Under the pieces are notes generated by a model. That model did no database searches, was not told where the DNA came from, and saw only the letters and a program-made list of their open reading frames with translations. This document shows, one piece after another, positions 17,801 through 61,100 of a DNA stretch of 64,000 bases. Numbering within the stretch: position 1 is the first letter of the stretch; each line of letters starts with the position of its first letter. The stretch spans positions 14,973,835-15,037,834 of the forward strand of contig OZ038527.1 of NCBI GenBank assembly GCA_964036665.1, given 5' to 3'. The stretch is from Gordius sp. MW1. Its lineage: Eukaryota > Nematomorpha > Gordioida > Gordea > Gordiidae. A program made the translations under genes and the position numbers.

Positions 17801-20564
17801 ATTAACTTATCATACAAAATATTATGTTTACTGTTAACAAGTCGTATGGTTGGATGGCGAAATGAGTAGGGAAAAGAGAGTTAGATATTTTGGGCCATAG
17901 GGGCGCACTTGTTTGGAATTTCACCTCAACATTCTATTACGCTTCCCGAAGAAGGGCCCCTATGGCCAAAATTATTGAATTCCCTTACGCGGCGCATTCA
18001 TAATGTGCGCGGTGCTATGCAAAAATTTCGAGCATTAATTACAGATGTTTTGAGTTGTTAGTAGGGAAATATATAATATTTTGAACTTGTTCGATTAAGT
18101 CCTTTATAGAAAGAGCCAAATTTATGCATTATCTTACACACTTTATGAATAAGTGTCCTAAATTTGCGCACATTATTAATGCCGCGTTAGGCAGCATCGC
18201 AATTTTTTTTGCCTTAAAGATATATGTTCCCTGGATTGACATTAGTAGGCCACGCATCTAGAGCAATCACTAAAGTTGGGTCTTAATTCTCTTTTATAAG
18301 CATGTTAGACCATGAACAATTTTACAAAAATAAATAATCGGGCCTAATGAGATTGGTGCGCGTTTACCAAACTCCGGCTTTGCAGTCCATCGTGGATGGC
18401 ATTTTACAATCCACGTTAAACGCATTAAAAGTCTATCTATTATAACCCTGTCTTCCTCTTTACATCTTAAAATAAAGAAATTTTGTCAATCCTAGTGTCA
18501 TCAACTATCTAAATTGTTCAACTTTTGCATCTAAAATGATAAAGCTAAAAGTTAAACCCTTAGCTCTTTTCTGTTTGACATCTGTCTATAATTTTATCAA
18601 TGTTGCGCGCGTCTTTATTCATGATAACTTTATTTAATTATACACCCACTTACTTATAAATTGTATATTATCCCCTATATATAGATGATTACGCCGATAA
18701 CGTTGCAAATTCAAAATTGAATGATGGCAATAACGAGTTTATTGAAAGACATTCCAAAGCACTCGAAGAGCAGTATTACAAACGTGCAAGTACACATGGA
18801 CCTGGATATTTTGTTTTCGCTGTTGAGCATAATAACTTTCCCGATTATTCTTTTACCGTCGATATCGTGGAAGATACAAACGATACCTTTACCAATAAAA
18901 GCCTAAATTCTGAAGACGAAAGTGCTACTACTACAACAGTTGAAGAGAAAATAGAAAGTTTTGGCGCCTCAAATTATCCACATCAATTTGGATATAAGAA
19001 TATGTTGATCACGGGTAGTAGCCCCATTGTCATTGCTTCGGATAAGAAGAAAGATAATATACCTGACGATACTTTTGCTACAGCCGCTGTAGTGGGTCTT
19101 AGAATAAAATTAGAACGATTTTCTGAGATATTTTTCAATACCTCTACCATTAATGTATGTTATTAATTTTTAATATCAATGTCTTAATATTATTGTGTGT
19201 AGTGTTTTAGTGAAGGGACTATGTGTTATCTTTTGGACGAACATGCATATGTAGTATTATCATCTACCAAAGATCCAAGACATATAGGAAAATTTTTTGG
19301 ACAAATTGACGGTCGAACTATGCTAACATTATCCAATCATGTTTATAAAAAGTAAAAGTTTAATTAATGTTTTAATTTTTTAGAATTCAACTTTATGATT
19401 TTCAAGCTATGTGCGAAACGCAAGTTTCTATACGAAGTTTTTCCTCCGAAAAATTCAATTTATTTATTACTGCATTTATAAAATCAATTGTGAAATTTAT
19501 GCGAATCGCAATTTCTTACTTTTATAGTTTATTTAATCATTATTTAAAAAATCACAACATTTTTCAATCATGGAACCAAATTTCAGTGTTGTCCCCGATC
19601 TCAAGCAGATCTTTAATTGCCTTTAACAAGCTTCTTAAACAATTGATATACGGATATCTTCTATACCCTAGTTCATTAATCTCGTCATTGCCGATTTCCC
19701 CAGATAATTCAATTAATATAGCCCAATCTACAACATACGAATCGACTTTAGAAGAAGATGATGAAGAAGATGACAGGAATATAAAGGTGTTTAAGCCTCC
19801 TCATCATTGCGAAAAAAAGTTTAATCTGTTCTTAGTTAATCGAGAACTGCTTGCTAGCGAGGTAATAACTTTTGATTTTTTATCGTTTATGCAATCGATT
19901 TATTAGGCAAAATGCATTTAATAAATTTTATCCATACCAGGGCCCCGTATCTCTTATCTCCAACTGCGCCGGTGCAGCTATTTATACATCGTCTGCCAAA
20001 AATTACGATAAAATGAAGTTTTGTGGTAAACCTTTTACCGTGAGCCTAGTGCCTCACACTAATCTAGTGTTAGTTGTAGTGCGAAAAGCTCAATCTGGAT
20101 TTTTTGCTGATTCAAATTTAGGCAAGGAATCAAAAAAAGTTGAATCCCATCAGGGTGGTCAGGGCACGGAGTACTCTATGTACCGAGATATATGTGCTCA
20201 ATGTGACGATCTTAAATATAATTATCAACCTAGGGCCGTGTCTTTAATTCACGAGGAAGTTCGTGATTTTGATGACGAAATATACACTGACGATTTATCC
20301 TTTTCAAATAAGGATGTCAAGAAAAAAAGTAAAGAAGTGGATACAGAATCTCAGCTCGAGTCAGAGGGTAAAAAAAGAAAGAGGAAAAAATATAGGTGCT
20401 ATGGCGTAAAAACTCATGTATACCGTCGAAGACCAACTACTTGTTATTCTCACAATCAGCTTGAAAATTCAGATACATGTGGATCAGCTGTGACCCTGTA
20501 TAATACAAAAGTCAAATATTTTGTATTTTCATTATTCGTTGCTATGTGGTGTATGTATCATTAA
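5858..20564 (+). CDS. CACNA2D3: Voltage-gated calcium channel alpha-2/delta subunit, CACNA2D3/4-like, 25 exons
   Basis: Auxiliary subunit that increases surface delivery and current of voltage-gated Ca2+ channels; extracellular, usually GPI-anchored. CDS exons: 5858-5931, 5969-6050, 6090-6200, 6238-6297, 6335-6500, 6541-6672, 7425-7485, 11942-12092, 12138-12212, 12261-12350, 12466-12576, 14710-14788, 15241-15290, 15333-15416, 15454-15513, 15550-15606, 15645-15725, 15763-15837, 15886-16056, 16294-16612, 16700-16864, 18685-19154, 19203-19351, 19384-19861, 19941-20564. All junctions are GT/AG and keep frame: 1,324 residues. Signal peptide [22 protein letters not shown] region; VWA domain from about residue 230 with intact MIDAS DGSGS (246-250) and ITDGA (351-355); Cache-like region ([29 protein letters not shown], about 485-533); [20 protein letters not shown] near the end; CGS followed by a hydrophobic tail, as for a GPI signal. 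About 200 residues longer than vertebrate members, partly from acidic (exon 24) and Lys/Arg-rich (exon 25) stretches. The exact paralogue assignment is less sure than the family. Confidence 0.93.
6884..6995. mobile_element. CATGGGCG-family MITE, copy 1 (intron 6 of alpha-2/delta)
   Basis: Begins CATGGGCGTAGCCAGG, has two poly-G runs inside, and ends CCATG. It is flanked by a perfect 8-bp direct repeat, GCTATGAT, at 6876-6883 and 6996-7003. Two more copies with their own duplications lie at 13110 and 16089. Confidence 0.85.
7486..8869. other. Start of 4.46-kb intron 7; degraded palindromic patches
   Basis: This intronic DNA holds a GC-rich patch at 8170-8300 flanked by similar aacttaaact ends in inverse orientation, a near-palindrome GCCTACGCCCATGGGCGTGGG at about 8528-8548 (probably a degraded CATGGGCG element), and an AGCGCTAG-type patch at 8630-8710. 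No coding segment seen. Confidence 0.45.
8870..10640 (-). mobile_element. RTE-like non-LTR retrotransposon, copy 2 (internally deleted, in intron 7)
   Basis: Minus strand. The endonuclease N-terminus lies at about 10550-10340 ([21 protein letters not shown], cf. the 'tWNvRTL' start). An endonuclease fragment [18 protein letters not shown] lies near 10060-10000, and RT motifs HQGSTLSSF and [10 protein letters not shown] at about 9690-9585. Much of EN and N-terminal RT is missing relative to copy 1. The 3' part carries a younger 201-bp MITE at 9112-9312. Multiple stops and frame changes; dead. Confidence 0.8.
9112..9312. mobile_element. hAT-like MITE inserted in RTE copy 2
   Basis: Terminal inverted repeats GTTAAATTGCT / AGCAATTTAAC, preceded by CAGTGGT on the left and followed by GACTCCA on the right. 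Near-identical 8-bp repeats ctatgccc (9104-9111) and ctacgccc (9313-9320) flank it. RTE copy 1 at about 100-125 lacks this insertion and so acts as an empty site. The termini are related to those of the large hAT-type element at 22548-33248. Confidence 0.7.
10641..11941. other. End of intron 7, nothing recognised
   Basis: AT-rich intronic DNA up to the acceptor at 11940-11941. I found no coding similarity and no paired termini. Confidence 0.5.
13110..13194. mobile_element. CATGGGCG-family MITE, copy 2 (intron 11)
   Basis: Compact 85-bp element, CATGGGCGTAGCCAGG...GGCTACGCCCATG, with poly-G runs inside. It is flanked by catccgtt (13102-13109) and tatccgtt (13195-13202), 7 of 8 identical. The terminal repeats are near-perfect over 13 bp. 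Confidence 0.85.
13195..14053. other. Intron 11, non-coding
   Basis: This stretch of the 2.1-kb intron is less AT-rich than its surroundings (13250-13700 in particular) and may be an old repeat. I could not match it to a family or find a coding frame. Confidence 0.4.
14054..14340. repeat. 287-bp inverted repeat (hairpin), probable MITE
   Basis: The left arm, about 14054-14145, and the right arm, about 14243-14340, are imperfect reverse complements: GCAAGG...GGTTTTATTA against TAATAAGACCCCTTGC, and GAAAAGGATTCCAATATT against AACATTGGAATCCTTTTC. The spacer is AT-rich. The target duplication is not clear. Confidence 0.65.
16089..16264. mobile_element. CATGGGCG-family MITE, copy 3 (intron 19)
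   Basis: Starts CATGGGCTTACCCAGG and ends GTACGCCCATG. The core has several G-runs and one C-run. A perfect 8-bp duplication, TCTATCTA, lies at 16081-16088 and 16265-16272. It almost fills the 237-bp intron between exons 19 and 20. Confidence 0.87.
16865..18684. other. Intron 21 with a small palindromic element
   Basis: A 1.8-kb intron. An inverted pair TTTTGGGCCATAGGGGC (17888-17904) and GCCCCTATGGCCAAAA (17955-17971) marks a small hairpin element of about 85 bp. The remainder is AT-rich with no recognised feature. Confidence 0.5.
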
Positions 20565-22539: not shown

Positions 22540-23588
22540 CCTATGAGTAGAGTTGTTAAATTGCTAACTTTAGCAATGCTAACTATGTGCTATGCTCGAG
22601 CACGAACACTAGCTGTGTAATATGCTAGTTTAACACAATGAGTTCTACCTGTTCGGTGCAATAGTTTTAACAGTAGCACGTAAAAATGCTCGAGAGGTTA
22701 GTCGAAGCAGCCAAATATGTTAAAAAATTTAGCAGGAGCTCGAGCAGTAAATTCGAGCAGATAGTAGATTGAATTGCTATTTGTTCAAATTACAATTTTA
22801 ATCATATTATATATCATAAACTAGCTGACCCGGCAAACGTTGTTTTGCCATATTAAAAATATTTTTAAAAAGTAAAAAATTTAAATAAGAAAATTTAAAA
22901 CTACTAAAAAAAATTTAAAAACTCAACTAATAAAATTGGCAACAAAATTAATGAGCTGCCATTATTATCACATGGCCATAGAAGCATGTAATTTATTTCG
23001 GGACACGACCTTGCATAAATGTAATAACAATGAACATTATAAGAACGTATTATATAAAAAGATACAAATGTCACACGTATGGGGGCGATGTGGGATCCAT
23101 GTTTCGGGCCAAGCGTTGATTTGGCTTAGTCCCTAATTAGCTAAATAACAATGTAGAAAAAAATTTTGAGTTCATCAAACGAAATGCATAAACATCCTTC
23201 GAGCTAACCTTCTTGTTTGTTTCTGCTACTGTAATAATGTGTATTCCAATTAATTGAAAATTAGTAATCGTGTTTTTAATAATGAATAAAGTACCTGTTA
23301 GGATATCTCGTTTTTTATCAACAATCTCTAAGTGCGATGGAGTATACAATATTTTTGGTTAGTCCATCTTTAGCCAACACAAACAAACGGGATGGTTTAC
23401 CCGCGCGAGAACATGCCACGTATAGCTGTCCGTGGGAAAAGCAAGATGCGCCCAAATCTAAGCCACAAATAGACATCGTTTGACCTTGAGCCTTATTGAT
23501 TGTCATTGCGAATGCCAATCTTATTGGAAATTGAAAACGTTTGAATTCAATTGGCACATCTGAGGGAATCATAGGGATTCGTGGTAGC

Positions 23589-23963
23589 TGTAGAGGCTCT
23601 TTCGCACGCTACTTTCCCTTGACCCCGTCTAGGCGAATTCTAACACGTGATTTTTATTTTTAATAGCCCCTCGCTTGTACTTAACCATCACGTGATTTTT
23701 ATTTTAATAGCCCCTCGCTTGTACTTAACCATCACGTGATTTTTATTTTAATAGCCCCTCGCTTGTACTTAATCATTACGTTATTTTTATTTTAATAGCC
23801 CCTCGCTTGTATTCAACCGTCGCCTGATTATTCAAATGATAATGGGCTCGCGCAGCTACATAAGCACAACCTTTAAAACTAACAGAATTATATTCATTTT
23901 TTCGCATATACTTTACACTAGAATAAACAAGATTACTTCTAATTAATGAAGTAATCCACTTCA
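23589..23963 (+). repeat. 5' LTR of the CsRn1-type element
   Basis: 375 bp, differing from the 3' LTR by three substitutions and one 1-bp indel, so the insertion is young. It holds about five 44-45-bp tandem units, each with a CACGTGATTTTTATTTTAAT-like block followed by AGCCCCTCGCTTGTACTTAA. The first three units carry the E-box palindrome CACGTG, lost in later units. Confidence 0.93.
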
Positions 23964-23965
23964 TT

Positions 23966-23983
23966 TGGTGACCCCGACGTGAT
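23966..23983 (+). promoter_or_regulatory. Primer-binding site, tRNA-Trp type
   Basis: TGGTGACCCCGACGTGAT begins 2 bp after the LTR. It is complementary to the 3' end of animal tRNA-Trp (…ATCACGTCGGGGTCACCA). Confidence 0.85.
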
Positions 23984-23999
23984 CACGCAACCATCTGAT

Positions 24000-24772
24000 A
24001 TGGAGGTTAAAAGCGAAAATGCCACATATTTTAAACTGCCACAGTTTAACAATATAAACCCCGCTCATGGTTCATCCAAATAGAGGCTCTTTTCTTGGTA
24101 AGAAAGATAAAAAGCGAAGCTACCAAAGTTGGGTACTTAATAGAAGCCTTGCCACTGGAAATAACCATCGAAATTCAAGACATCCTACAAAATATGCCCG
24201 ACATTTTACCCTATACAACCATGAAAGCAGCCATCATAGACCGCACTAGCCAATCCGATTCTGCTAGACTTCGTGCTCTTCTCACAACTGTCGAATTAGG
24301 AGATCGCACCCCATCCCAGCTTCTGCGTTTCATGAAAAATCTTCTGGGAACGAATTCCATGGATGAACGAGTTCTTAAAGAACTTTGGTTAGAAAAACTT
24401 CCAAAAAACATGACCGGCATTTTGGCAATTGTTTCTGACGAGCAGTCCCTCTCCAAATTGGCCGAAACTGCGGACAAAATTGTAGAGACCTACCACAACT
24501 CCACATGTCCAATTGTAAATGTAGTCACGGAAGATGAATCGACTCGGCTTAGGGAGATGATTGCAAAGCTCACACAGGAGGTACAAAATTTAAAAATCTC
24601 AATCAATAGGCCACGTGATCGTTCCAACTCGAGACGCCGCAATCCCTCTACCGTTCGCCACCCTAGCGCGCATATTCAACCAAATATACTTTGTTGGTAC
24701 CATTACCGCTTTAAAGACAAGGCGCTCAAATGCGTGCAACCTTGCGCATTTAACCCCCCTTCGACAAACTAG
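24000..24772 (+). pseudogene. gag of the CsRn1-type element (frameshifted near its start)
   Basis: Structural polyprotein. A start region with FKLPQFNNINPAH near 24030-24065 is separated by a frame change near 24070-24095 from the long frame 24095-24772, which carries the capsid-like segment (IEALPLEITIEIQDIL, ELWLEKLPKNM). Near the end is a zinc knuckle CWYHYRFKDKALKCVQPC: C-x2-H-x9-C-x3-C. The CHCC order is characteristic of the CsRn1 group. Confidence 0.85.
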
Positions 24773-24786
24773 TAGACCACCCAGGG

Positions 24787-27700
24787 ATGGCGACGCCTGG
24801 ACTTGGTCTAAAACTTAGTCGCCTATTTTACATATTCGACAAATCCACGGGTCAGCGATTTCTCATTGACACAGGCGCGGAAATTTCCGTTATTCCGCCT
24901 TCTCGAGGCCATTCCTTGACCCCTTCATATGTGCAACTTCAGGCCGCCAATTCTACCCCTATCAAAACATATGGCCAAAAGCTTTTCACTTTGGACCTCG
25001 GCCTACGCAAAGAATTTAGATGGATTTTTACAATAGCAGACGTTAAACAGCCAATCATCGGAGCCGATTTTCTTAATCACTACCATCTAGTAGTTGATAT
25101 AAAAAAGAAGCAGCTCTTCGACACTCAAACGACATTAACATCTGCAGGCAAGGCTACACTCGTTACGTCAATCAACATACAAGTTGGGATAATTGGCACC
25201 TCCCCCATCAAATCACTACTTCAGAAGTATGCCTCCATAGTGTCCCCTTCTGATTATAAGGCTCAAGTAACTCATAGCACTCAACACCATATCCACACCA
25301 ACGGCCCCCCGGTTCGCTCAAAACCAAGGAGACTCTTCCCGGACAAGCTTAAGATTGCCCGAGACGAATTTACTCACATGCTCGAACTTAATATAATCCG
25401 TCCCTCTAACAGTGACTGGTCCTCACCCCTGCACATGGTACCCAAGAAGGCCGCGGGAGATTGGAGACCTTGTGGCGACTATCGCATGCTCAACAGTCGT
25501 ACAATTCCCGACTGTTATCCACTTCCCCACCTCCATTATTTTGCGCTGACCCTTTGCAATAAAACGGTATTCTCCAAGATCGACTTAGTCAGGGCATACC
25601 ACCAAATTCCAAGGGCCCCCGAGGATATTTCTAAAACCGCCATCACAACCCCGTTCGGTCTTTTTGAATTTCTTCGCATGCCATTTGGCCTTCGCAACGC
25701 TGCCCAGACGTTTCAACGCTTTATGGACCAAGTTTTTAGAGAACTTGACTTTGTTTTTGTTTACCTTGACGACGTACTCATCGCGAGTTCTTCCATTGAT
25801 GAACACCACAATCATATTAGACTGGTTTTTGAAAGACTCAAGTCTTTCGGTATTAAAATCAGTCAGGATAAATGCGTATGGTGTCAAAACGAAATTAATT
25901 TTTTGGGACACAAAATCACCCCTCAAGGTTTGTCACCCCTTCAGGACAAGGTGGAAGCAAACCTCAATTTCCCACAGCCTACTTCGATGACTCAGTTGAG
26001 ACGCTTCTTAGGGATGATTAATTTTTATAGACGGTTTATTCCGATGTGTGCCGATTTACTCAAACCTCTCCGATTTGCTCGACGGTTTAAAGAAGACAAT
26101 TTCCTGCACCCCGGAAGCTTCGACTGCTTTTAACAACGCCAAACTCGCTTTAAGCAATGTCGTGCCTCTCTCCCATCTTCAAAAAGACGCTCAACTCTCA
26201 ATCACCACCGACGCCTCCAACTCAGCTGTAGGAGCCGTATTACATCAAACATCTAACGGTAATACGCTGCCTTTGGCCTTTTTTTCCCAAAAGCTAACAA
26301 AAACTCAACAGCGATACAGTGCATTCGGTCGCGAATTATTAGCAATATATTTAACAATCCGCCATTACCGCCATTTTTTAGAAGGTCATGAATTCACTAT
26401 TTATACAGACCACAAGCCACTAACTTATGCTTTCAGTACACCTATCCCCGCGGGAGATTAGACAGTTAGACTATATTTCGCAATATACTACCGATCTCCA
26501 ATATATAGCTGGCAAATCAAATGTAGTCGCTGACACCCTCTCAAGGTCTGAAATTGATTCCGTTGATTTTAAAGACAGGCCCCTAGTAGAAAGGTTAGCT
26601 TTGGCTCAGATGGAAGAAAAGTCGGCATTTCAGGACCTAAAGTCCCTAAAATTAACGCAACTTCCTATACCTGGCTCTGATTTGACCGTGCAATGCGACA
26701 TGTCCACAACCTCACCTCGACCACTTGTTCCAACTTCACTCAGACGCGTAATTTTTGATAACTTCCACAACTTATCACACCCTGGTACGCGTGCAACACT
26801 TAAGCTGATTTACGTCGATATGTTTGGCCCTCCATCAATATGGATGTAAGGAAATGGGCCAAATCATGCGTTGCTTGACAAAAATCGAAGATTCATCGTC
26901 ACATAAAAGCCCCTTTAGGCACATTTGCTGAACCTGACGCTCGATTTAGCCACATCCACGTCGATCTCGTTGGTCCACTACCACCGTCGAATGGATATAC
27001 CCACTTACTCACCATTATTGACCGTTTCACACGATGGCCTGTCGCCATGCCGATCCGTGACACCTCAGCCCAAACGGTTGCAAAAGCTCTGATCAAGTAT
27101 TGGATAGCTGACCTCGGAGTACCATCAAGCCTCACAACATATAGAGGTCCCCAGTTTGAGTCCCAATTATTTCGGAATCTCACGCAACTCCTTGGTGTAA
27201 ATCACATCACAACCACTGCCTATCATCCACAAGCCAACGGCATGATTGAGAGATTTCATCGACAGTTGAAAAGTTCCTTGATGGCACAAGGTGACACAAA
27301 CAAATGGGATGAGCTCTTACCATTAATTTTGCTTGGCATTCGAAGCACAATCAAGGAAGACTTAGGTTGCACTCCAGCCGAATTAGTTTATGGCACTACA
27401 CTTAGACTTCCCGGCGAATTTTTCACGAACTCAAGAACCCCTCATAACGCGTCCGAATTTATTAAATGCCTAAAACAACATTTTTACCATTTACCTTTTA
27501 AAAAAGTCAGGACACAATTGACAAATGCGAGTACAACTTCACTTCTTAAGGACTGTAAATACGTTTTTATCCGTAATGATTTCGTTCGAAAAAGTTTGGT
27601 GCCACCATATGACGGCCCGTTCAGAGTAAAGTCCAAACATGCTAAATATTTCATTATTGAAAAAAACGGAAAAGCTGACTCAGTTTCGATCGAGCGATTG

Positions 27701-27892
27701 AAACCTGCATATTTAGATACTTCAACTCAGCCGCTTACGGATACCGAAAATGTAAATCCACCCAAAGTTTGTCCCTCCGACGACATCGCCGGACCAGCTA
27801 ACTCCGACCCAGACCTAACAAAATCAAAAGAAAACCCATACATCACATCGAGAGGAAGGCACGTGCATTGGCGCTATAAACTACTACACTAG
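24787..27892 (+). pseudogene. pol of the CsRn1-type element (PR-RT-RH-IN, broken)
   Basis: Protease active site LIDTGAE at 24859-24879. RT with GDYRMLN and YLDD at 25762-25773. RNase H with TTDAS near 26203 and YTDHKPL near 26404, in a shifted frame after a break near 26095. A further frame change near 26455 leads to the integrase zinc-finger region, followed by a stop and frame changes at about 26850-26920. The integrase core and C-terminus run in one frame at 27047-27892. Of the D-D-E triad, the first Asp (GAT, 26962) and the Glu (GAG, 27248) are present. The second, expected before RGPQF, is Tyr (TAT, 27140-27142). Inactive. Confidence 0.9.
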
Positions 27893-27925
27893 CCACAACT
27901 CTCCGAGTGGAGCCCCGAGGATAGT

Positions 27926-28301
27926 TGTAGAGGCTCTTTCGCACGCTACTTTCCCTTGACCCCGTCTAGGCGAATTCTAACACGTGATTTTTATTTTTAA
28001 TAGCCCCTCGCTTGTACTTAACCATCACGTGATTTTTATTTTAATAGCCCCTCGCTTGTACTTAACCATCACGTGATTTTTATTTTAATAGCCCCTCGCT
28101 TGTACTTAATCATCACGTTATTTTTATTTTAATAGCCCCTCGCTTGTATTCCACCGTCGCCTGATTATTCAAATGATAATGGGCTCGCGCAGCTACATAA
28201 GCACAACCTTTAAAACTAACAGAATTATTATTCATTTTTTCGCATATACTTTACACTAGAATAAACTAGATTACTTCTAATTAATGAAGTAATCCACTTC
28301 A
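27926..28301 (+). repeat. 3' LTR of the CsRn1-type element
   Basis: 376 bp, nearly identical to the 5' LTR and with the same internal 44-bp tandem units. The sequence immediately upstream (GCCCCGAGGATAGT) is only a weak polypurine tract. Confidence 0.93.
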
Positions 28302-29995
28302 GAGCAATACATTTTCACCTCGGAACTTTCCATTCAAAATGGTGACTTCGAGAAGATTCTTCATGCATTTTTTAATCACTAATCTTGTGCCATTGCACAG
28401 CCGTGGTGGGTTAAAATTACGAAGCAAAATTACCGGAGAGCCAACCTTCAATTGTAAAAGGTGCGGAGGCATGCCTGACAAATCCAATGAATTCAAAAAC
28501 TCTATTGGATAATTTACAGCTTCGTTAGCATCGCAAAGTGTATCGATAGATTTGTATGACACCAAGTCACCTGGCAACAACTGTGTATCTTGGAATTTAA
28601 ATCATTGACATCTACATTCTTTGCTGACAATATTGCTCTTTCGGACATCCAAGCGAGATTTTTGTACTGTGTATGTAGATCTGGAAATGTGGTCCATGAG
28701 AGCAATTTGCGTGTCGACGATTGTGCAAAAATCCGTCGGTAATTTTATGCATCCAGTATTTTGATACAAAGCTACTTTTCCATCATCAATATCTAAAAGT
28801 TGTTTTGAGAATGTTTCAGCGGATGGATCTTAAGCATACGAACGCGCATGTATAATTTCAGTTCCAACTTTTCAACATTACGCCACAATGACGATTCAAG
28901 CAAGCGTTGATCTCATCAGCGTACGTTGAACGTGGAATGACGGGAAGTGTTTGTCTGAAATCACCTGAAAGGAGTAACAGAGTGCCTCCAAATAGTTTGT
29001 CATTGTTTTTTATATCTTTCAATGTCCTATCCAATGCCTCAAGGGAATGTTTGTGTGCCATAGTACATTCTCCCAGATGATAACTTTACACCGTTTAAGT
29101 ACTGTGGCCATAGACGACTGTTTTTTTATGTTGCACACTGCCTCTGGGTTATTTTGGATATTTAGTGGCAGCTTAAATGCAGAATGAGCTGTTCTGCCAT
29201 CTAATAAAATAGCTGCAATGCCAGATGATGCAACTGCCAATGCGATGCCATTTTTGATCGTATCTTGGCAAGAATTATCGAAATGTGAAATGTTTTGCCA
29301 GTTCCACCTGGTGCATTCAAAAAAAGGAAACCACCTTGTCCTGCCAAAACTGCAAGCATAATTCGGTCGTAAATGGATTTTTGTTCATCATTTAGTAGTG
29401 GGACATTGTGAGTAACAATTTCTGCCATTTCTACAGTATTGTGTTGCAGTTCAAGACTCATATTAGTGTTGAGGAAATCAGATGCACTTCGATTAGGTGA
29501 ATTCATACCAAAATGACTAATTTTTAAATTGGCAATGACAATGCAAAGATCCTCAATAGCTATCAATGCTTCATTGTACATAGCGTCGCTGAATAATATC
29601 GCTAGATCGTTGCACCTTGCTCGATATCGATGTAATATATCCTCAACCATTGAATCTTTGTGCTTATCCCACAACGTTACGGGCAGGGAAACATGTAGTC
29701 AACACCATAGCAAATAGGAGACGAATTTGTGTTGCTGTTGAGTTTAATGCTGCTTCAGTAAGCAAACTGTCCCTGAGTGCTTATATATGCGATTGTTTTT
29801 ATTATTATGTGGGATTTTAGGGCATATATGATGATAAAGCGGGTATTGAAGTAAAAATAAATTTTGATGTCTATATGTTCTACTTCTATTGTTCTATTTC
29901 CGTATACAGTGCAACGCATACGAATATAACATAGCGCAATAATATATCAAAGTTGTTAAAATATAAAAAAATAATTAAATTATTAAATGTAAAAC

Positions 29996-32330
29996 TTTTA
30001 TAATTTTTTTTATCCTTCTAAAGAATGACAAAGGCAATTATAAATACATGCCAAAGTATAAGTGATAAAATTTGCAACTAATCTGTACTAAAAAATTAAT
30101 AATAGATGAAAAATGATATTTATATATATTGCAATACTAAATAGCATTTACTCAGAATAATCAACATTGGATGACTGTCTCATATCATTATAAAATGTAT
30201 TTTCAATTAAGAAACACCCAGATCTAAATATATCCTGTAATAATAGTCTATTTGGAAAAATTTATTATACCTTTGTAAAATAAGATACAGGTTTTTTGGG
30301 GTTCTCACTAATGTCCTCACATATTCCAAAGTCATTATTACAAAATATTTTATTTTTTAATGCAGATAATGAGGTATGTCCAAGAACATCAAAACTCTGA
30401 TCAACATTAGCTGTCAAATATAAAGATATTTTTTTATCCTTCTAAAGAATGACATATGCATAAGACAATTATAATTGCATGCCAAAGTATAAATGATAAA
30501 ATTTGCAACTAAGCTGTACTAAAAAATTAAAAATAGATAAATCATGACATTTATATATATTGCAATACTAAATAGCATTTACTCAGAATAATCTAGGTTG
30601 GATGACAAATTTATTATACCTTTGTAAAATAAGATACAGGTTTTTTGGGGTTCTCACTAATGTCCTCACATATTCCAAAGTCATTATTACAAAATATTTT
30701 ATTTTTTGATGCAGATAATGAGGTATGTCCAAGAACATCAAAACTCTGATCAACATTAGCTGTCAAATATAAAGATATTTTTTTATCCTTTTAAAGAATG
30801 ACATTTGCATAAGACAATTATAATTGCATGCCAAAGTATAAATGATAAAATTTGCAACTAAGCTGTACTAAAAAATTAATAATAGATAAATCATGACATT
30901 TATATATATTGCAATACTAAATAGCATTTACTCAGAATAATCTACGTTGGATGACAAATTTATTATACCTTTGTAAAATAAGATACAGGTTTTTTGGGGT
31001 TCTCACTAATGTCCTCACATATTCCAAAGTCATTATTAAAAAATATTTTATTTTTTAATGCAGATAATGAGGTATGTCCAAGAACATTAAAACTGTGATC
31101 AACATTAGCTGTCAAACATAGATAAAGATATTTTTTATCCTTCTAAAGAATGACATTTGCATAAGACAATTATAATTGCATCTAAATATATCCTGTAATA
31201 ATAGTGTATTTGGAAAAATTTATTATACCTTTGTAAAATAAGATACAGGTTTTTTGGGATTCTCACTAATGTCCTCACATATTCCAAAGTCATTATTACA
31301 AAATATTTTATCTTTTAATGCAGATAATGAGGAATGTCCAAGAACATCAAAACTCTGATCAACAATAGCTGTCAAATATAGATAAAGATATTTTTTTATC
31401 CTTCTAAAGAATGTTTGCATAAGACAATTATAATTGCATGTCAAAGTATAAGTGATAAAATTTGCAACTAAGCTTTACTAAAAAATTAATAATAGATAAA
31501 TCATGACATTTATATATATTGCAATACTAAATAGCATTTACTCAGAATAATCTACGTTGGATGACAAATTTATTATACCTTTGTAAAATAAGATACAGGT
31601 TTTTGGGGGTTTTCACTAATGTCCTCACATATTCCAAAGTCATTATTACAAAATATTTTATTTTTTAATGCAGATAATGAGGTATGTCCAAGAACATCAA
31701 AACTCTGATCAACATTAGCTGTCAAATATAGATAAAGATATTTTTTTATCCTTCTAAAGAATGACATTTCATAAGACATTTATAATTACATCTAAATATA
31801 TCCTGAAATAATAGTGTATTTGGAAAAATTTATTATACCTTTGTAAAATAAGATACAGGTTTTTAGGGATTCTCACTAATGTCCTCACATATTCCAAAGT
31901 CATTATTACAAAATATTTTATCTTTTAATGCAGATAATGAGGTATGTCCAAGAACATCAAAACTCTGATCAACAATAGCTGTCAAATATAGATAAAGATA
32001 TGTTTTTATCCTTCTAAAGAATGACATTTGCATAAGAAAATTATAATTGCATGCCAAAGTATAAGTGATAAAATTTGCAACTAATCTATACTAAAAAATT
32101 AATAATAAATAAATCATGACATTTATATATATTGCAATACTAAACAGCATTTACTCAGAATAATCTACGTTGGATGACTGTCTCATATCACTATAAAATA
32201 TATTTTCAATTAAGAAACACCCAGATCTAAATATATCCTGTAATAATAGTGTATTTGGAAAAATTTATTATACCTTTGTAAAATAAGATACAGGTTTTTT
32301 GTGGTTCTCACTAATGTCCTATTCCAAAGT
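29996..32330 (-). pseudogene. Tandem array of a captured SNAPC3-like exon inside the Helitron
   Basis: Six full 140-bp exon copies at 30271-30410, 30620-30759, 30969-31108, 31229-31368, 31579-31718 and 31839-31978, and a truncated one from 32274. The spacing is 349, 349, 260, 350, 260 and 435 bp. On the minus strand each is preceded by an acceptor-like ATATTTGACAG and followed by a donor-like GTATAAT, with repeated intron sequence between. The translation carries VDQSFDVLGHTSLSALK and NNDFGICEDISENP, resembling the SNAPC3 (SNAP50) core (V-L-G..T-L..L-k-D-k-I.C..D). SNAPC3 is the DNA-binding subunit of the snRNA gene transcription factor SNAPc. I read it as a host exon plus intron edges captured by the Helitron and then multiplied. 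The family call comes from recall, not a search. Confidence 0.7.
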
Positions 32331-32611
32331 CAAACGGAATATGTCTGTTCGCGGAAGAATACATTCACAACACGATAGATACGCAGTATACGTCATGAGG
32401 TGGCGTTTGAGTGACATTTTAATAAACGTCAAAACGTATAAAACTAAATAACTTGACCGTCTTATGACTTAGAGATTTTAAATATAGTTAAAAACCTATT
32501 CTCAGACCTACCAATCAATCGCAGAAATTTCCATCTAAATCGGTCCAGCCGTTTCGGAGGAGTTTAATAACTAACACCTTTTTACGTGATTTTTATATAT
32601 ATAGATAAATT

Positions 32612-32960
32612 CAGAACTTTGCCCTCCCCCCCCCCCCCCTTATTTTTTACCCTCTTTCTTACCAGAGGGGGGGGGGGGCACCCCCCCCCCCCCTTATTTT
32701 TTATTCTCTTTCTCAACAAAGGGGGCTTTTTTACCCTCTTTCTCACGAGAGGGGGGGGGGTTTGCCCCCCCCCCCAACCTTATTTTTTTTTTCTTACCAG
32801 GCGGGGCACCAAAAGAGGGATAAAAACAAGGGGGCAAAACACCCCCCCCCCCCTTCCATCTCCCCTCTGGCGAGAAAGAGGATAAAAAATAAGGGGGGGG
32901 GGGTAAAAATAACCATCTGGTAAGAAAGAGGGTAAAAAATAGGGGGGGGGCAAAGTTCTT
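32612..32960. repeat. C/G-run palindromic minisatellite, core of the hAT-type element
   Basis: Alternating C-runs, TTATTTTTTACCCTCTTTCT and G-runs, ending in an inverted pair AGAACTTTGCCC / GGGCAAAGTTCT. The same unit builds the arms of the fold-back element at 55947-60126. Confidence 0.8.
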
Positions 32961-33256
32961 AATATATTTATGATATATAATAGGATTAAAATTGTAATTT
33001 TAACAAATAGCAATTCAATTAATTGCTATGCAATTTATCTACTATCTGCTCGAATTTACTGCTAGAGCTCATGCTAAATTTTTTAACAGATTTGGTTGCT
33101 TCCACTAACCTCTCGAGCATTTTTACGTGCTACTGTTAAAACTATTGCACCGAACAGCTAGTACTCATTGTGTTAAACTAGCATATTACCTAGCTAGTGT
33201 TCGTGCTCGCGTTTTTAGTTGAAGCTACTTAGCAATTTAACAACTATACCTATGAG

Positions 33257-34092: not shown

Positions 34093-36277
34093 ATGCCAAA
34101 GGTACGAAGGAGTAAGAAACCTCCACCTGAAGGATGGGAGCTAATTGAACCCACATTAGATGAATTAGAGCAAAAAATGCGAGAAGGTTTGTGTGTGTTT
34201 AACTTTTGTTTAAATAATATTGTCTTAATATACCTATATGTATATTTTTTTTAACTATTTTAGCTGAAACTGATTCTCATGAAGGTAAAAGAAAGGTTGA
34301 GGCTTTATGGCCTATATTTAAAATTCACCATCAAAAAACAAGATACATATATGACTTATTTTATAAAAGAAAAGCTATATCTAAAGGTAAATTAACATTT
34401 TTTATAATGTATAATGTCTTTTAGAGCTATATAATTTTTGTCTTGATGAGGGATTGGCTGACAAAAATTTAATTGCCAAATGGAAAAAAGAAGGCTATGA
34501 AAATTTGTGCTGTTTAAGATGTATACAAACTCGTGACACAAATTTTGGCACTAATTGCATATGCAGAGTTCCCAAAAATAAACTTGAAGCTGTAAGTTTT
34601 AATAATTTCTAGGATAAAGATTTTTTATTATATTAAGAAAATGGAATAATATTCATATACTTATGTATAACCTAAGGATCATTTTTTTAATTGTTTTCTA
34701 CTAATTGATAATCAATCATGCAGGATAGAAGGGGGTTATTTACTTTTATTTTTTTATATTATAAAATTTTTGATAAACAGTACTTTCTTGATATTAATTG
34801 TTATTAATATTTTAAGTATGTTAATACATAGCATGCAAATGATATTTTGCTGCTCAAAAATTTGTAAACATTTAAGGCCCATATTTTACCTATTTAAAAT
34901 TTAATCTCACAATATTTATGATAAAATCCTTAAAAAATTTATCAACATATCTGTTCTAACCTTTAAACATTGGTATTGAGATTACAAGTTTTATATTTCT
35001 AGAAAAATGTAAATTCATTCAATTTTTTAAGATATTAAATTTTGTCCATGCTAGCCATGTTTGATTTTGCTTTTTAATCTATTTGACCGAATATATTTTA
35101 AATCAACATATGCATACAGCTTTGAGTATAGGCATCTTAACTTAGCTTTACCATTGAACAACATTGCAAGTTTATGCAATTTCATGAATAGCTTAAATAA
35201 CAATTTCTGGCTTATGTCTCAAAATAATTTTCAAATATCCTGCCAATAATTTTCATTCTTATATTATTCTTTTTGAAAAAATATGGTGTATTTTCAACAT
35301 TGTAAAGCTAAATTTGGGGGATATTGAAGATTAGAAATTTAACACTATGCAGAAATTTATAAGTTTATTTTATAATAGACCCTGATGCACAAATAAGTTT
35401 ATATCAGTTTTAAATTTATTCTACTGTAATTGAATGTTTAATAAATTTTTTTTTTAAATTGAAAATTTATCATTGGTTTAAAGTTAACAGACAGGTCTAA
35501 AGAAGTCATTACTTTAATTGCGTAACTTAATATAATATGCTCTATATTATTTCAAATTTATAATGCATTTTTCAAGATCCAGTTATGTTAATTTACTTTA
35601 AAAACCATATATCTTTTTCAAATCATAATTAAATATAAATATATGCCATAAAGGCCTGGCACAATTCGAGTAACTGGCAGGGCCTGGCCCACAATAAACC
35701 TAAGTATATTAATGCTGTTCTGTTCATATTTCAATATAATTTAAAATTTTTCATTTAGCATAAACTACAAATTTGATTAAAAATTATAAGTGTAAAAATT
35801 GTAGGAAGTTCTAGCTGGACAGACACCTTTTTAGCATTATATTACAACATATACAAGTCCAATGTGTTGCTAATGGTAAAAAGGTTTTGAATAGCTAAAT
35901 TAAATTTAGAGAGCCTATTCAAATTTTTTATTAATTTTATCATTTTTTTCATCCTATTTTTTAAATTTTTTCTTTCCATGGTGGGTAACTTTACAAAATT
36001 GCACATTAATTTGTGCTCAGCTTTTCATGGTTATTATAATTTAGTTTTCCTAAAATTGGTTTGTATTTATGATTGCTCTAATAATACTCCCTTTTAACTT
36101 TCTATTTTAAATAAAAAATTTACTTTATTTCATTAAGTAGAAACATGTATTATTAACCATAAATAGCATAGCAATTGATATATTTATTTCCAATATATTA
36201 AGTCATTCTAACTATCTTAAATTTAGGGACGAGTTGTTGAATGTATACATTGTGGATGTCGAGGATGTTCAGGATAA
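34093..36277 (+). CDS. BUD31: BUD31 / G10 pre-mRNA splicing factor, 4 exons
   Basis: Nuclear spliceosome component of the activated complex. CDS exons are 34093-34186, 34264-34386, 34425-34591 and 36227-36277; introns are 77, 38 and 1,635 nt, all GT/AG with frame kept. The product is 144 residues, the usual animal length. It starts [20 protein letters not shown] and continues with [20 protein letters not shown], the Cys cluster [20 protein letters not shown], and the end [11 protein letters not shown], which form the zinc-binding sites of the G10 family. An in-frame ATG 33 bp upstream (34060) was not chosen because the conserved family start is at 34093. A TATAAA at about 36353 could serve in 3'-end formation. 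No sign of decay. Confidence 0.97.
34592..36226. other. BUD31 intron 3, nothing recognised
   Basis: AT-rich 1.6-kb intron. Short frames only, and no inverted termini noticed. Confidence 0.5.
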
Positions 36278-47394: not shown

Positions 47395-48029
47395 TCAAGG
47401 AATTTTTCGCATCTAAAAATTGCCGAGTTCCTTGGCAAAATTGTCAATGAGTTGACAAAGCGACTCATATCGGACATTTCGTTTATAAAAAGGGATGAAC
47501 TCTGAAACTACCTGCCCGATTCGCGCGAAAATTTAGCCGTAGATGCCCAGGGCGGCCAGGGGTAAAATAGCTTTTTCAGATTCCTAAAATTCTTTTTAGT
47601 TTTAAAAATAACGGACATTACGTTTTAATAAAGGGCTAACTGTGAAACTACCGGCCCGATTCGCGAGAAATTTAGCCGTAGATGCCTAAGCGGGCAGGGG
47701 TAAAATAGCTTTTTCAGATTCCTAAAATTCCTCTTAGTTTGAAAAATATCGGACATTTCGTTTTAAAAAAGGGCTAAACTCTGAAACTACCGGCTCGATT
47801 CGCGCGAAAATTTAGCCGTAGATGCCCAGGGCGGCCAGGGGTAAAATAGCTTTTTCAGATTCCTAAAATACCCTTTTGTTTTAAAAATATCGGACATTTC
47901 GCGGCCAGTTTCATTTATAGCATCATATACAATCATGACGTCATACATACAAGGCTGAAGTTTTCTCGAATTTTAATATATTAAATTAAATTGTATTTTT
48001 AGCAAAACAACGTTTGCCGGGTCAGCTAG
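47395..48029 (+). mobile_element. Second Helitron, 3' end with minisatellite
   Basis: The 3' terminus is GGGTCAGCTAG followed by T (48030), with the hairpin GCAAA-ACAACG-TTTGC at 48002-48017, matching the Helitron at 22821-32605. Before it lie about three 140-145-bp tandem units (47460-47900), each with CTGAAACTACC, CGATTCGCGCGAAAATTTAG and GGGGTAAAATAGC. The 5' terminus was not found, so this may be a truncated copy. Confidence 0.75.
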
Positions 48030-55100: not shown

Positions 55101-58100
55101 AACACAAAAAAAGAAAGATTAATTTTATTTCCATCGGTACAAATCGCAATTGTAATTATTCTGAATAAACCTACAATGAAGTTTTTTTCAAATCTAACCA
55201 ATAATATTTCCGCCCCCCCCCCTCCTTTAAAAACCACGTTAAGCAATCTTATGTTTATGAAATCCATAGTTAATAGGCTACACAAATGAAATTAGAAATC
55301 TTCACCATTAACAAAGCATTTAGTCCTTTGAATTTTCTAATTCTTGATGAGTTTTTTATATGTGTCTGCCAATGATTTTGGTGTTAGTCGCGATTTCCTA
55401 GGACTTATTGGCGCATGTTTAACATTAATTATATTAAAAGCTAGACTAATTAGGGAAAAATAAAATATTGTGAATTAAAGTAAAAACTATTACAATTGTT
55501 TACAACCCCCTCGTTAAGTACTATAATTTATTGACTTATGTCCCATGACGTATTTATTATTTTAAGTTTATTATACTTCATTGGTAAAACGGCTACCACA
55601 TATTAAAATAGGCAAAGTCTCTACGTTAATAAATTCTTACACAATCCGAGAAAATGGAATCATCGTATATGCAAAATAAAAAAAGACATTTAGTCATCTA
55701 TCAAATCAAATTTGTCATCGTGGGATTTCCTCCAATAAAAATGAATAAGTTTGCATCACATCAAAATTCCTCATTTATTTCAGCAGGGAACTAACTTGAG
55801 ATTCACAGCAATGTTGCACCTTTGACGCATAAAGCGAATTACCAGACGCAAACCTTTGCATCAACTTAATTTTCATTGATCTATTAAACTTTATGCATTT
55901 AGATAAATATCATTTTGTATATTTTACAGTTGTTTAAGCTTCCTACTAGTGTTGTAAAAAACCAAGGGTTTCTATTGGTTGCCTGCAAGCGTTGGCGTTT
56001 TTTTTCACCCAACCTTTTCAGTGTTAGGTGAATTTTCTTGGGAGGGCTTTGGCGTTTGGCGTTTTCGTAAAAAACACCCAAAGCGTTTTGGGTGTTTTTT
56101 TGGGGGCACCTTTGGCGTTTAGGTTTGGGAAAGAGCTAAAGGGTTTGGGTGGATAATATTATTAACCTTTTGGTTTGGTTTTGGTCGTTTTGGGTTGGGC
56201 ATGCAAATATATCAATTTGTTTATATTGTTCATCATATTTGTGTATTTAGATTTAGGTAATGAACTTTTAGTTTAAGAAAATAAAAATAAATGTATCATG
56301 ACGTCACAATGTAGTTAATTCAGTAAATTATAGTTAATTATTATGCATTATAGAAGTAGGTAGTGAATCAATATGTTTTATTTATGAAAAAAAAATTTGT
56401 GAAGATTTGCCCCCCCCCCTTTATTTTTTACCCTCTTTCTCACCTGGGGAAGAACGGCGGGCAGGTGGGGTGTTTGCCCCCCCCCCCTTATTTTTTACCC
56501 TCTTTCTGATCCGGGGGAGAGGCGGGGGGGGGGGGGGCAGGGGGGTGTTTTGCCCCCCTCCCCCCTAAATTTTTACCCGCTTTCTGATGCGAGGGAGAGG
56601 GGGGTGTTTTGCCCCCCCCCCTTATTTTTTACCCTCTTTCTGAGCGAGGGAGAGGGGGGGCAGGGGGTGTTTTGCCCCCCCCCCTAATTTTTTACCCTCT
56701 TTCTGATGCGAGGGAGAGGGGTTGGCAGAGGGTGTTTTGCCCCCCCCCCCCTAAATTTTTATCCTCTTTCTAATGCGGGGGAGAGGGGGGCATGGGGGGT
56801 GTTTTGCCCCCCCCCCAATTTTTAACCCTCTTTCTGATGTGGGGGAGAGGGGGGGGGGGCATAGGGGGTGTTTTGCACCCCCCCCCCCTAATTTTTTACC
56901 CTCTTTCTGATCCGGGGGAGAGGCGGGGCATGGGGGGTGTTTTGCCCCCCCCCCCCAATTTTTTACCCTCTTTCTGCGAGGGAGAGGGGGGGGGCAGGGG
57001 GTGTTTTGCCCCCCCCCTCCTAATTTTTTACCCTCTTTCTGATGCGGGGGAGAGGGGGGCAGGGGGGTGTTTTGCCCCCCTCCCCCCTAATTTTTTATCC
57101 TCTTTCTGATGCGAGGGAGAGGGGGGTGGCAGGGGGGTGTTTTGCCTCCCCCCCCCCCCTAATTTTTTACCCTCTTTCTGATGCGAGGGAGAGGGGGGTG
57201 TTTTGCCCCCCCCCTTATTTTTTATCCTCTTTCTGATGCCGGGGAGAGGGGGGGGGGGGTGAATCGACCCTCTTCTTATTTTTTACTCTCTTTCTCACCC
57301 GGGGGGGGGGCCGAAAAGCCCTTTTTAACCCTTTCAAAATATTTTTGTGAATTTTTGCGGTCACAGTGGTGACAAATGTCATAATCAACATTTTCTATTG
57401 AGATTAATATTTTTTTTTTAAATAGACTTATTATATGACTGAAAGATGTTCTACTATTATAAAAAATATTTTTGGGAAGATTTGCGGTCACAGTGATGAC
57501 AAATGTCTTAATCAACATTTTCTATTGAAATTTATTTTTTTTCTGAAAATTGCCTTATTATATGGCAAAGATTTTCTAATATTCGAAAATATATTTTTGA
57601 AGATTTGCGGTCAAAAATTGTCTTAATATACCATATCAATTAAAATAAATTTTTTTAATTTAACTTCATTTACGAAATAAGCTGTATTATTAAATATAAT
57701 ATTAATATGAAATTTTACCAGTTTAAAAAAATTTGCCATCATGGGTAAGTAAGTTTTACTATTTAAGTTATCTATCTGGGCATTTAATGGAAAAACTTGG
57801 TATTTCCAAAAAGCATATCATGCTATTAATTACTATGCTTTCACAAGGCACCAACATTCTACGTCCTGTTGACTTAGACTTCGCGTTTACAATGCTTATA
57901 AGGATCATAAAAAATATCGGACTTTTCGAGTAACAAAAATGAGTTAAGCATCTTAATTTAAATTATTGCTTATTATTTAATAAGAAACTTAATTTTCTAA
58001 TTGATTATGACTTAATTAGTAGTTGACATAATAAAAAAAAGTTTAATTTTCATTTATTTTATTTATAATAATATGATTTGCAACCTCTACATACCTTGAT

Positions 58101-61100
58101 ATGTTGTACGTTAAAAAAGAAATGAATGTAAAATGATGTAATAAAGAGCCTAGCCAGCCCACGCCACACCATGCCTTGTTGTGCCATGATTTTTTTATAT
58201 ATTTAGTTTAGTACTTAACTTAAATCTGATAGGTTTAAATCTGGTTTTGCGCATGCATTGCAACGAGAGAAGGAAGAGAGAGGGTGGATTAGTACATGAA
58301 CATGTACATGCTACATGGGAGTGGTGATATGTCGAGTCGCGCGGGATGCCGTTCTCTGATATTGAAAATAGAGTTTAAATATAAAATAAAAGGGACATTA
58401 TATAATTAATAAGTCTTTATCTTTTACAAGAGGCGAGGAATTTAAAATATATTTGAAATTAAATTTTGTGATTAAAATTGCTATTGCCGGGAATATTTAG
58501 AGGAGGATCTCTTAGCTGTTTTTAATTTAGAATGAATTAAAATATTAATTTTTAATTGAAGGATTGAATTCTTTATCTTTTACAAGAGGCGAGGAATTTA
58601 AAATATATTTGAAATTAAATTTTGTGATTAAAATTGCTATTGCCGGGAATATTTAGAGGAGGATCTCTTAGTTGTTCTTAATTTAGAATGAATTAAAATA
58701 TTAATTTTTAATTGAATTCAAAATATGCTCTCGAATGGCCAGATAAATCTCACTTTATAATCGTTTTCTATTTATTGAAAACACCCCCTATGCCCCCCCC
58801 CTCTCCCCCGCATTAGAAAGAGGGTAAAAAATAAGGGGGGGGGCAAAACACCCCCCATGCCCCCCCTCTCCCCCTCATCAGAAAGAGGGCAAAAAATTAG
58901 AAGGGGGGGGGGGTAAAACACCCCCTATGCCCCCCCCCTCTCCCCCACATCAGAAACAGGGTAAAAAATAAGGGGGGGGGGGGCAAAACACCCCCCCCCC
59001 CATGCCCCCCTCTCACCCGCATTAAAAAGAGGGTAAAAAATTAGGGGGGGGGGCAAAACACCCCCTGCCCCCCCCCTCTCCCTCGCATCAGAAAGAGGGT
59101 AAAAAATTGGGGGGGGCAAAACACCCCCCATGCCCCGCCTCTCCCCCGAATCAGAAAGAGGGTAAAAAATTAGGGGGGGGGGTGCAAAACACCCCCTATG
59201 CCCCCCCCCCTCTCCCCCACATCAGAAAGAGGGTTAAAAATTGGGGGGGGGGGCAAAACACCCCCCATGCCCCCCTCTCCCCCGCATTAGAAAGAGGATA
59301 AAAATTTAGGGGGGGGGGGGGCAAAACACCCTCTGCCAACCCCTCTCCCTCGCATCAGAAAGAGGGTAAAAAATTAGGGGGGGGGGCAAAACACCCCCTG
59401 CCCCCCCCCCCTCTCCCTCGCATCAGAAAGAGGGTAAAAAATAAGGGGGGGGGCAAAACACCCCCCTCTCCCTCGCATCAGAAAGCGGGTAAAAATTTAG
59501 GGGGGAGGGGGGCAAAACACCCCCCTGCCCCCCCCCCCGCCTCTCCCCCGGATCAGAAAGAGGGTAAAAAATAAGGGGGGGGGGGGCAAACACCCCACCT
59601 GCCCGCCGTTCTTCCCCAGGTGAGAAAGAGGGTAAAAAATAAAGGGGGGCGGGGCAAATCTTCACAAATTTTTTTTTCATAAATAAAACATATTGATTCA
59701 CTACCTACTTCTATAATGCATAATAATTAACTATAATTTACTGAATTTACTACATTGTGACGTCATGATACATTTATTTTTATTTTCTTAAATTAAAAGT
59801 TCATTACCTAAATCTAAATACACAAATATGATGAACAATATAAACAAATTGATATATTTGCATGCCCAACCCAAACGACCAAAACCAAACCAAAAGGTTA
59901 ATAATATTATCCACCCAAACCCTTTAGCTCTTTCCCAAACCTAAACGCCAAAGGTGCCCCCAAAAAAACACCCAAAACGCTTTGGGTGTTTTTTACGAAA
60001 ACGCCAAACGCCAAAGCCCTCCCAAGAAAATTCACCTAACACTGAAAAGGTTGGGTGAAAAAAAACGCCAACAACTAAGCTTAGCAATACGCTGGGAAAA
60101 ACCAGCCAGCCGTTTTTACAACACTACTTCCTACATGTTGTCAGCCATCCCCATCATTTTTTAAATTGGCAATACGAATATTTTAGGATGGGCCGAACCC
60201 CTTTTGCAACGAATATACGAGGACCGGAAGAGAGTGGTTTGTCCCGTAATTGATGTCATTGACGATTCCACGTTTAAATTTCATTATTCCGGCGCCATCG
60301 GTACAAACTTGGGAGGTTTCGATTGGAATTTGCAATTTAATTGGCATCCCATCCCAGAACGGGAAAAACAGAGGAGGAAAAGTGTCATCGATGCCTTGCA
60401 GTAAGTACATTGACTTGCTTTATAAAGCTTTAATATTTATTTTTACGATAATTATTAATATTGTTCCCCATTTTAGAAAGATTTTTTGATTTGATTGAGT
60501 TTGGCTAGACGATTTTACCCTAGCTTCATTTCACGACTTCTAATCCACTTTCGTGAAAACATTTAATCTTGGAATTTGGCTTATTGGTCATTGACTAATT
60601 GCGACAGTTTGCTCTTTAAGCTTCAAACCTAGTCTTGATATTTCGCATGCCTATAAACACTCATTTGACTTAAATATTAGGGTAATAATGAATGCTTGTT
60701 CAAATCTTTCCTAGCTCACCTACTATGGCCGGTGGACTCTTTGCTATTGACAGAAGTTATTTTGAAGAAATTGGCACATACGATGCCGACATGGAAATAT
60801 GGGGTGGAGAAAATTTGGAATTATCCTTTCGAGTATCGTAGCCCAAAATTTTTATACACAAATCAAATTTCAAAGCTTCTTTAATTTTTAACGAAATATT
60901 TTTAATCAATACCTCCGTTTTAAGTTACTCTATTATATGATTTGAGGTTTGGATGTGCGGCGGTACGCTAGAAATAGTACCTTGCTCTCATATTGGGCAC
61001 ATATTTCGTAAACGAAGTCCCTACAAATGGAAGGCCGGTGAAAATGTTCTGAAAAAAAATTCTGTCCGCTTAGCTCTCGTATGGTTGGATGATTATGCCA

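Follow-up and report, generated by a model that had tools for sequence, protein, structure and literature searches.

A captured piece of the SNAPC3 gene multiplied in tandem inside Helitrons of Gordius sp. MW1

The window Helitron and its exon array

The window, i.e., the whole 64,000-nt stretch of Gordius sp. MW1 DNA analyzed here, lies on C1 (14973835-15037834) in a genome that was searched over 211.8 Mb in 12 contigs. It contains a Helitron copy on the minus strand (22821..32605), which begins with TCTATATATATAAAAATCACG at 32605, ends with GGCAAAACAACGTTTGCCGGGTCAGCTAG at 22821, and is preceded by an A and followed by a T. Helitrons start with a 5' TC and finish with a 3' CTRR, with a hairpin just before the 3' end; these features are present in the window element, like ends occur in other copies, and the window termini match other insertions with different flanks. 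The textbook Helitron termini proposed in the first-pass annotation therefore hold at both ends, but the element is much larger than had been described and is split by an LTR retrotransposon. The TC is preceded by an A in the window element and at 10 of 12 further loci that have this 5' end (L036 after allowing one extra TA), the exceptions being L074 (T) and L027 (G), and a second, diverged 5' hit in L025 is preceded by a C. A T follows the CTAG in all six loci with a hairpin match (seven were queried, and L024 gave none). As to target site duplications, which Helitrons lack, the window element has TTTA at either end, perhaps by coincidence given the richness in A and T, and by eye the two flanks of L074 have nothing in common.

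Two inverted arms (22547-22820 and 32967-33249; 84% identical over 293 columns) flank the Helitron, and because the end of the left arm coincides with the 3' end of the Helitron, the element probably landed inside an inverted-repeat element. G/C-run minisatellites occur at 32616-32960, directly beside the Helitron 5' end, and at 56410-57254 and 58778-59658, and they match each other in both orientations. The window further holds a BUD31 gene about 1.5 kb from the Helitron 5' end (34093-36277, plus strand; Pfam E 2.2e-69, exons joined by eye), a weak match to the calcium channel alpha2 family at 19872-20561 (22.7 bits against a cut-off of 22), and a 141-bp tandem repeat of 3.1 copies at 47467-47901.

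Read from its 5' end, the Helitron opens with a terminal region (32334..32605, minus strand), the first ∼256 bp of which recur at many places (41 matches among those listed, with 40 of 962 first-look candidates scored), whereas its last ∼17 bp are common mostly to SNAPC3-bearing elements. The exon array described below is followed by a junction block between SNAPC3 and helicase sequence (29640..29966, minus strand), whose first ∼163 bp make up the 3' subterminal part in L011, L016, and other Helitrons that bear SNAPC3, and by a broken PIF1-type Helitron helicase with its pieces in different frames (28302..29698, minus strand; three pieces match Pfam PIF1 and one matches Pif1_2B). The helicase frame is cut off by a nested LTR retrotransposon (about 23589..28301, plus strand; LTRs 98.7% identical over 380 columns), across whose insertion site L075 is continuous, and its C-terminal end was placed at 23318..23588 (minus strand) by eye and by continuity in L075, without a Pfam hit. 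The retrotransposon itself has 44-bp repeats inside its LTRs, an RVT_1 match, and an integrase match below the cut-off.

A Rep domain was found neither in the six open window stretches scanned with Pfam, which gave PIF1 and Pif1_2B pieces only, nor at any window position among the Rep hits listed for the genome (150 scored, out of 714 candidates). As judged from the lack of a Rep hit and the broken helicase, the window element is a non-autonomous Helitron copy. The suggestion that the array had taken the place of a lost Rep domain fared less well: no Rep was found, but the array sits near the 5' end, and the helicase is a separate block. Moreover, at five loci (L011, L016, L024, L069, and L076) the SNAPC3 piece is followed immediately by the 163-bp block and then by the Helitron 3' end, with no helicase match between, so that the array does not clearly replace Rep. 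Elsewhere in the genome, Helitron Rep domains occur in many open frames (e.g., C6:4549760-4550302), the longest among those listed having 1441 aa, which suggests that Helitrons may be recently active in this genome.

The array of exon copies occupies 30271-32332 on the minus strand. A blastn comparison of the 140-nt stretch 31229-31368 with the window returned six full copies, 95-100% identical, and a partial seventh of 59 nt at 32274-32332 (89% identical). The six full copies, first seen by reading the letters, were all recovered in place, each with an AG before and a GT after it. By blastn and alignment, these exon A copies lie, from the Helitron 5' end and all on the minus strand, at 31839..31978 (copy 1), 31579..31718 (copy 2), 31229..31368 (copy 3, the query), 30969..31108 (copy 4), 30620..30759 (copy 5), and 30271..30410 (copy 6, within the last and least deleted unit). 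Copy 1 is given as 140 nt from a cryptic acceptor, the parental boundary lying 4 nt further 5', and it carries an in-frame stop at codon 40 in the parental register.

The first unit (32003..32332, minus strand; parental index 2678-2997) comprises the 3' part of exon A, intron A, a complete exon B, and part of intron B, and the last unit (29967..30422, minus strand) comprises exon A, intron A, exon B, and intron B up to parental index 3048; the latter spans index 2590 to 3048 in the alignment to the gene, with which it is 85.8% identical. Complete exon B copies, two in all, are confined to these two units (32155..32237 and 30152..30234, both minus strand and 83 nt, with ends read by eye). The five middle units measure, from the Helitron 5' end, 260, 349, 260, 349, and 349 bp; the 260-bp type lacks about parental index 2791-2957, and the 349-bp type lacks about 2759-2815. 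By eye, GTCA is common to both sides of the 349-type deletion, with little microhomology at other unit edges. A repeat search gave copy spacings of 349, 349, 260, 350, and 260, which is far beyond chance. The alternating periods noticed earlier are therefore real, and they resolve into a higher-order repeat, in which two deletion derivatives form a 609-bp dimer (260 + 349) that was copied as a block: identity is 97.0% between the window's two dimers and 98.3% between its neighboring 349-bp units.

The SNAPC3 donor gene and its dispersed pieces

The donor of the array is a SNAPC3 gene (L073; C4:11234747-11237014) with a Pfam SNAPC3 match of E=2.7e-65, and in one search of the genome, matches to the C-terminal half of the SNAPC3 domain fell on C4 only. 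This gene aligns with the seven exon-bearing window units at 85.8-93.5% DNA identity (best E 1e-153). Profile matches in the window are weaker: of two 49-residue window translations that hit SNAPC3 (PF12251), the better reached E 3.2e-4 for one exon alone (20.9 bits against a curated cut-off of 23.8) and the other E 5.8e-4, likewise short of that cut-off. The SNAPC3 origin that the first-pass annotation had read from the letters is thus borne out, by a profile match that falls under the cut-off for a lone exon and by the alignment to the donor. A parental gene was also present in the same genome, as had been supposed, and its intron DNA is collinear with the window's last unit (exons A and B with intron A); in L036, L076, and L068, the collinear order extends to exon Z. 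However, exon A of the gene measures 144 bp (phase 0-0) rather than 140 bp, its acceptor lying four bases upstream of the start of the 140-bp stretch.

Nor was it just one exon that was taken up. Intron DNA is indeed included, and the stretch, captured as DNA, spans exons Z, A, and B with their short introns and ends within intron B (about 640 bp, parental index about 2406-3048), covering the first part of the SNAPC3 domain only; exon Z sequence is kept in L036, L033, L076, and L068. The 3' edge falls at parental index 3048 in 11 of 23 aligned places (the window, L074, L075, L076, L007, L008, L016, L018, L025, L033, and L069). Two introns of the SNAPC3 gene measure 34 and 36 bp, and by eye there is also a 32-bp GT...AG intron, which accounts for a frameshift initially suspected in the parental gene. 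Introns of 32-36 bp are very short for an animal.

The donor gene's best protein match among three hits in all, obtained (as was the Pfam match) with a query containing one X and a few wrong residues at the 32-bp intron, was to the horsehair worm Gordionus sp., with 55% identity across 97% of the query length. In exon A, the Helitron copies diverge from the gene by 5.6-10.5% and most of them from their nearest relatives by 0-3%, and their majority differs from the gene at 7 of 144 exon sites. At three residues, the Helitron copies have G (VLG), I (DKI), and V (SNV), as does Gordionus SNAPC3, whereas the present gene has S, V, and S. Such agreement would be expected if the Helitron-borne piece had come from another species' SNAPC3 by horizontal transfer. 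We regard this as quite improbable, because identity between the Gordionus protein and the gene is just 55%, as against a DNA difference of 5.6-10.5% between the copies and the gene in exon A, and because an older state of the same lineage's gene is the simpler explanation; a search of viral contigs with one exact 32-nt pattern, which is a weak test of horizontal transfer, gave no match. From their agreement with Gordionus against the present gene, the Helitron copies seem to preserve an older state of SNAPC3, and some of the changes common to them may have arisen in the host gene.

Besides the gene, a SNAPC3 piece was found at 24 places, the window included (genome hits merged by hand), of which 23 were aligned and one, at C5:7.61 Mb, was left out. 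The first-pass annotation had left the copies at other Helitron loci to be counted; of the 14 places holding a complete exon A, 8 hold several (with L007 and L008 as separate places). Complete copies number seven each in L074 and L076, six in the window, three each in L075, L007, L008, and L033, two in L004, and one each in L010, L016, L018, L011, L036, and L068; the remaining nine of the 23 places have either a partial exon A (three) or exon B sequence only (six). Tandem copy number thus varies between copies, as in Helitrons with an internal array. L007 and L008, 28,258 bp apart on C6, have identical exon A units and represent a segmental or assembly duplication.

These pieces are associated with more than one kind of Helitron end. 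A window-type 5' end is present at 92-96% identity in L074, L075, L010, L018, L025, L027, L033, and L036, and in more diverged form in L004 (88%) and L071 (90%). A second 5'-end type was recognized by eye in L011, L016, L029, L030, and L070 and, as a short match, in L024, L069, and L072, and the 3' hairpin is nearly alike between both types. In L072, the 163-bp block and 3' end lie 4.4 kb from the piece, and no 5' end was found for L076, L007, or L008 at those loci. In L068, the piece corresponds to parental index 2406-2750 and lies about 50 bp after the stop codon of a helicase that is 66-69% identical to that of the window.

Two of these observations could indicate repeated capture of SNAPC3 sequence, with different Helitrons as the captors, namely (i) the differing edges of the L068 piece behind its helicase stop and (ii) the content of L029, L030, and L070, which hold exon B only (index 2748, 2758, or 2764 to 2841) at 93-99% identity to the gene. 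However, the lost exon A acceptor and most of the other diagnostic changes are common to L068 too, and the exon-B-only copies have the GGA to GGG change, as do nearly all other Helitron copies covering that site; we therefore consider repeated capture unlikely. By parsimony, we infer that one capture, comprising at least exons Z, A, and B, was passed among Helitron types.

Splice sites and reading frame of the copies

Exon A was aligned for 49 Helitron units and the gene, and 38 units were compared, after leaving out eight partial first units and the three L008 units identical to those of L007. The parental acceptor in the gene reads TATTAG|ACAGC, and its AG is absent in all 38 Helitron copies: TTAG has become TTTG in 36, and the other two (L011 and L016) have different DNA upstream. 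A cryptic AG four bases further on is kept in 37 of 38 copies, and the donor GT in all 38. The view that the exon travels with its splice sites is accordingly correct for the donor and the cryptic acceptor but not for the true acceptor, which is lost throughout.

Among the 38 copies, 64 distinct substitutions were recorded, of which 50 change a residue, as compared with 50.3 expected (computed from the same mutation types; P(N<=50)=0.53), and 4 stops were created by substitution, as compared with 2.9 expected. The substitution pattern of these copies therefore gives no sign of selection on exon A. The frame is broken by an indel or stop in 10 of the 38, including one of the six in the window; a cruder script count of 12 had included L011 and L016, whose sole change lies at the edge of the captured piece, and among the ten, L076_3406r counts as broken because of a base inserted right where the exon ends. 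The frame is thus open in most copies, as the first-pass annotation had observed for several, but this is attributable to the copies being young rather than selected. By the standard of constrained coding sequence, the copies fail as members of the SNAPC3 family, given the neutral substitutions, the lost acceptor, and the partial domain.

We considered whether the array might act as a coding or splicing device, in which Helitron transcripts with exon copies in series would yield a repeated SNAPC3-derived peptide. The well-kept donors (38 of 38) and cryptic acceptors (37 of 38) are what such a device would need, and the six window exons, joined at the lost 144-nt edges, would be nearly open, with one stop in frame 0. 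However, the acceptor for that edge is absent from every copy, and joining at the available 140-nt edges shifts the frame and so places stops in every frame (21-22 in each). On these frame and acceptor tests, and with the neutral-looking substitutions and the ten broken copies, we reject the exon series as a protein, contrary to the earlier proposal that transcripts could include exon copies in series, and the kept frames are explicable by short age alone. A coding device is therefore highly improbable on sequence grounds, and a coding or exon-series function is not supported. The good preservation of donors and cryptic acceptors is the point that tells against a non-coding reading; youth accounts for it but is no proof. 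The copies appear to evolve as non-coding DNA, and the array would be a fossil of gene capture and not a new protein.

Tandem growth, proposed history, and relation to known Helitrons

Tandem arrays with a higher-order structure resemble satellites, and a satellite or local tandem duplication that the Helitron merely adjoins could in principle produce the same pattern. In element after element, however, with different flanks, the array stands behind the same Helitron 5' end or before the 3' end, which makes mere adjacency extremely improbable. The unit edges differ between elements: window-type units run from 2580 to 3016, with deletions, whereas those in L076 and L033 run from about 2530 or 2440 to 2774, that in L071 from 2801 to 2949, and L070 has two copies of exon B with other DNA. 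Since same-type units are alike across different elements, the 260- and 349-bp types seem older than the dispersal; the unit tree, which is without support values and whose intron columns carry the deletions, serves as an illustration only. Later duplications are also evident, in a two-unit block of L074 (98.8% identical) and in the 202-bp units of L076 (99.5% identical).

Two relatives, L077 and L078, have the window-type 5' region and no SNAPC3 in the 2.5 kb read. Both of these SNAPC3-free relatives hold other tandem arrays behind the 5' end, which may lie within the elements, and from this, tandem growth looks like a habit of these elements. A 3'-region probe gave 85 hits, of which the 60 longer ones form 40 clusters, with tandem copies in 10 of these 40, a proportion that is not a rate, as 40 of 1406 candidates were scored. 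It is conceivable, and we propose it tentatively, that one captured piece grew into tandem arrays on several independent occasions, separate Helitron lineages of this genome each arriving at unit edges of their own.

Taken together, we consider the following history probable, in which a single SNAPC3 capture was spread by several Helitron types as a passenger array without protein selection. A Helitron would have taken up, as DNA, a single stretch of host SNAPC3 sequence that reaches from intron B back at least to about where exon Z starts, or beyond, and the true acceptor of exon A would have been lost before the copies spread. Several Helitron types would then have carried the piece through the genome, some of them exchanging 5' ends, and short tandem arrays with different unit edges would have arisen in several lineages, through the same internal tandem growth that seemingly acts on unrelated DNA in sister Helitrons. 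In the window, the 260- and 349-bp deletion derivatives would have formed the 609-bp dimer, which was presumably then copied as a block. Amplification may have been due to slippage during replication or to unequal exchange, to which rolling-circle copying perhaps contributed.

Each half of this history has counterparts in print. Helitron capture of gene fragments is reported from maize, bats, silkworm, and the insect Hel1 (PMC6544945), and there, as here, a piece of a host gene is carried as DNA in a rolling-circle element at many loci. In the accessible text of that paper, "tandem" appears once, where it describes a 247-bp repeat in two copies that the text does not connect with any captured gene, whereas in the window the captured piece itself is multiplied. 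Helitron/Helentron elements with satellite-like central arrays are exemplified by Cg_HINE of oyster (PMC7492417; reviewed in PMC12628747). From the portions available, these resemble the present elements in having short internal tandem arrays between conserved ends, with different arrays in related elements and the same array in different ones. Their monomers are satDNA-like, however, whereas the monomer in the window is a host-gene piece with a known donor locus. Plant Helitron rolling-circle concatemers (Xiong et al. 2016, via PMC12628747) likewise link tandem growth to Helitrons but, as described in that review, many of them combine several 5' ends with a single 3' end, in contrast to the window array, which is internal and lies behind a single 5' end. 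The titles of the Helitron papers listed include none on a tandemly multiplied captured exon, and a search whose coverage is thin for subscription journals found no paper joining SNAPC3, or Nematomorpha, with Helitrons. As far as these partly available sources go, gene capture and internal satellite-like arrays are each documented, and their combination, with a multi-exon gene piece as the monomer, looks new.

The way in which Helitrons acquire internal arrays is difficult to follow if one does not know what sequence they grew from. In the present case, that sequence is a host gene of the same genome, against which each edge of a duplication or deletion can be read, and the array copies also seem to preserve older SNAPC3 residues. 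If the independent tandem growth proposed above is true, Helitron copying would regularly give rise to internal tandem growth, and arrays derived from a gene, for which the original sequence is known, would be a natural recorder of it.
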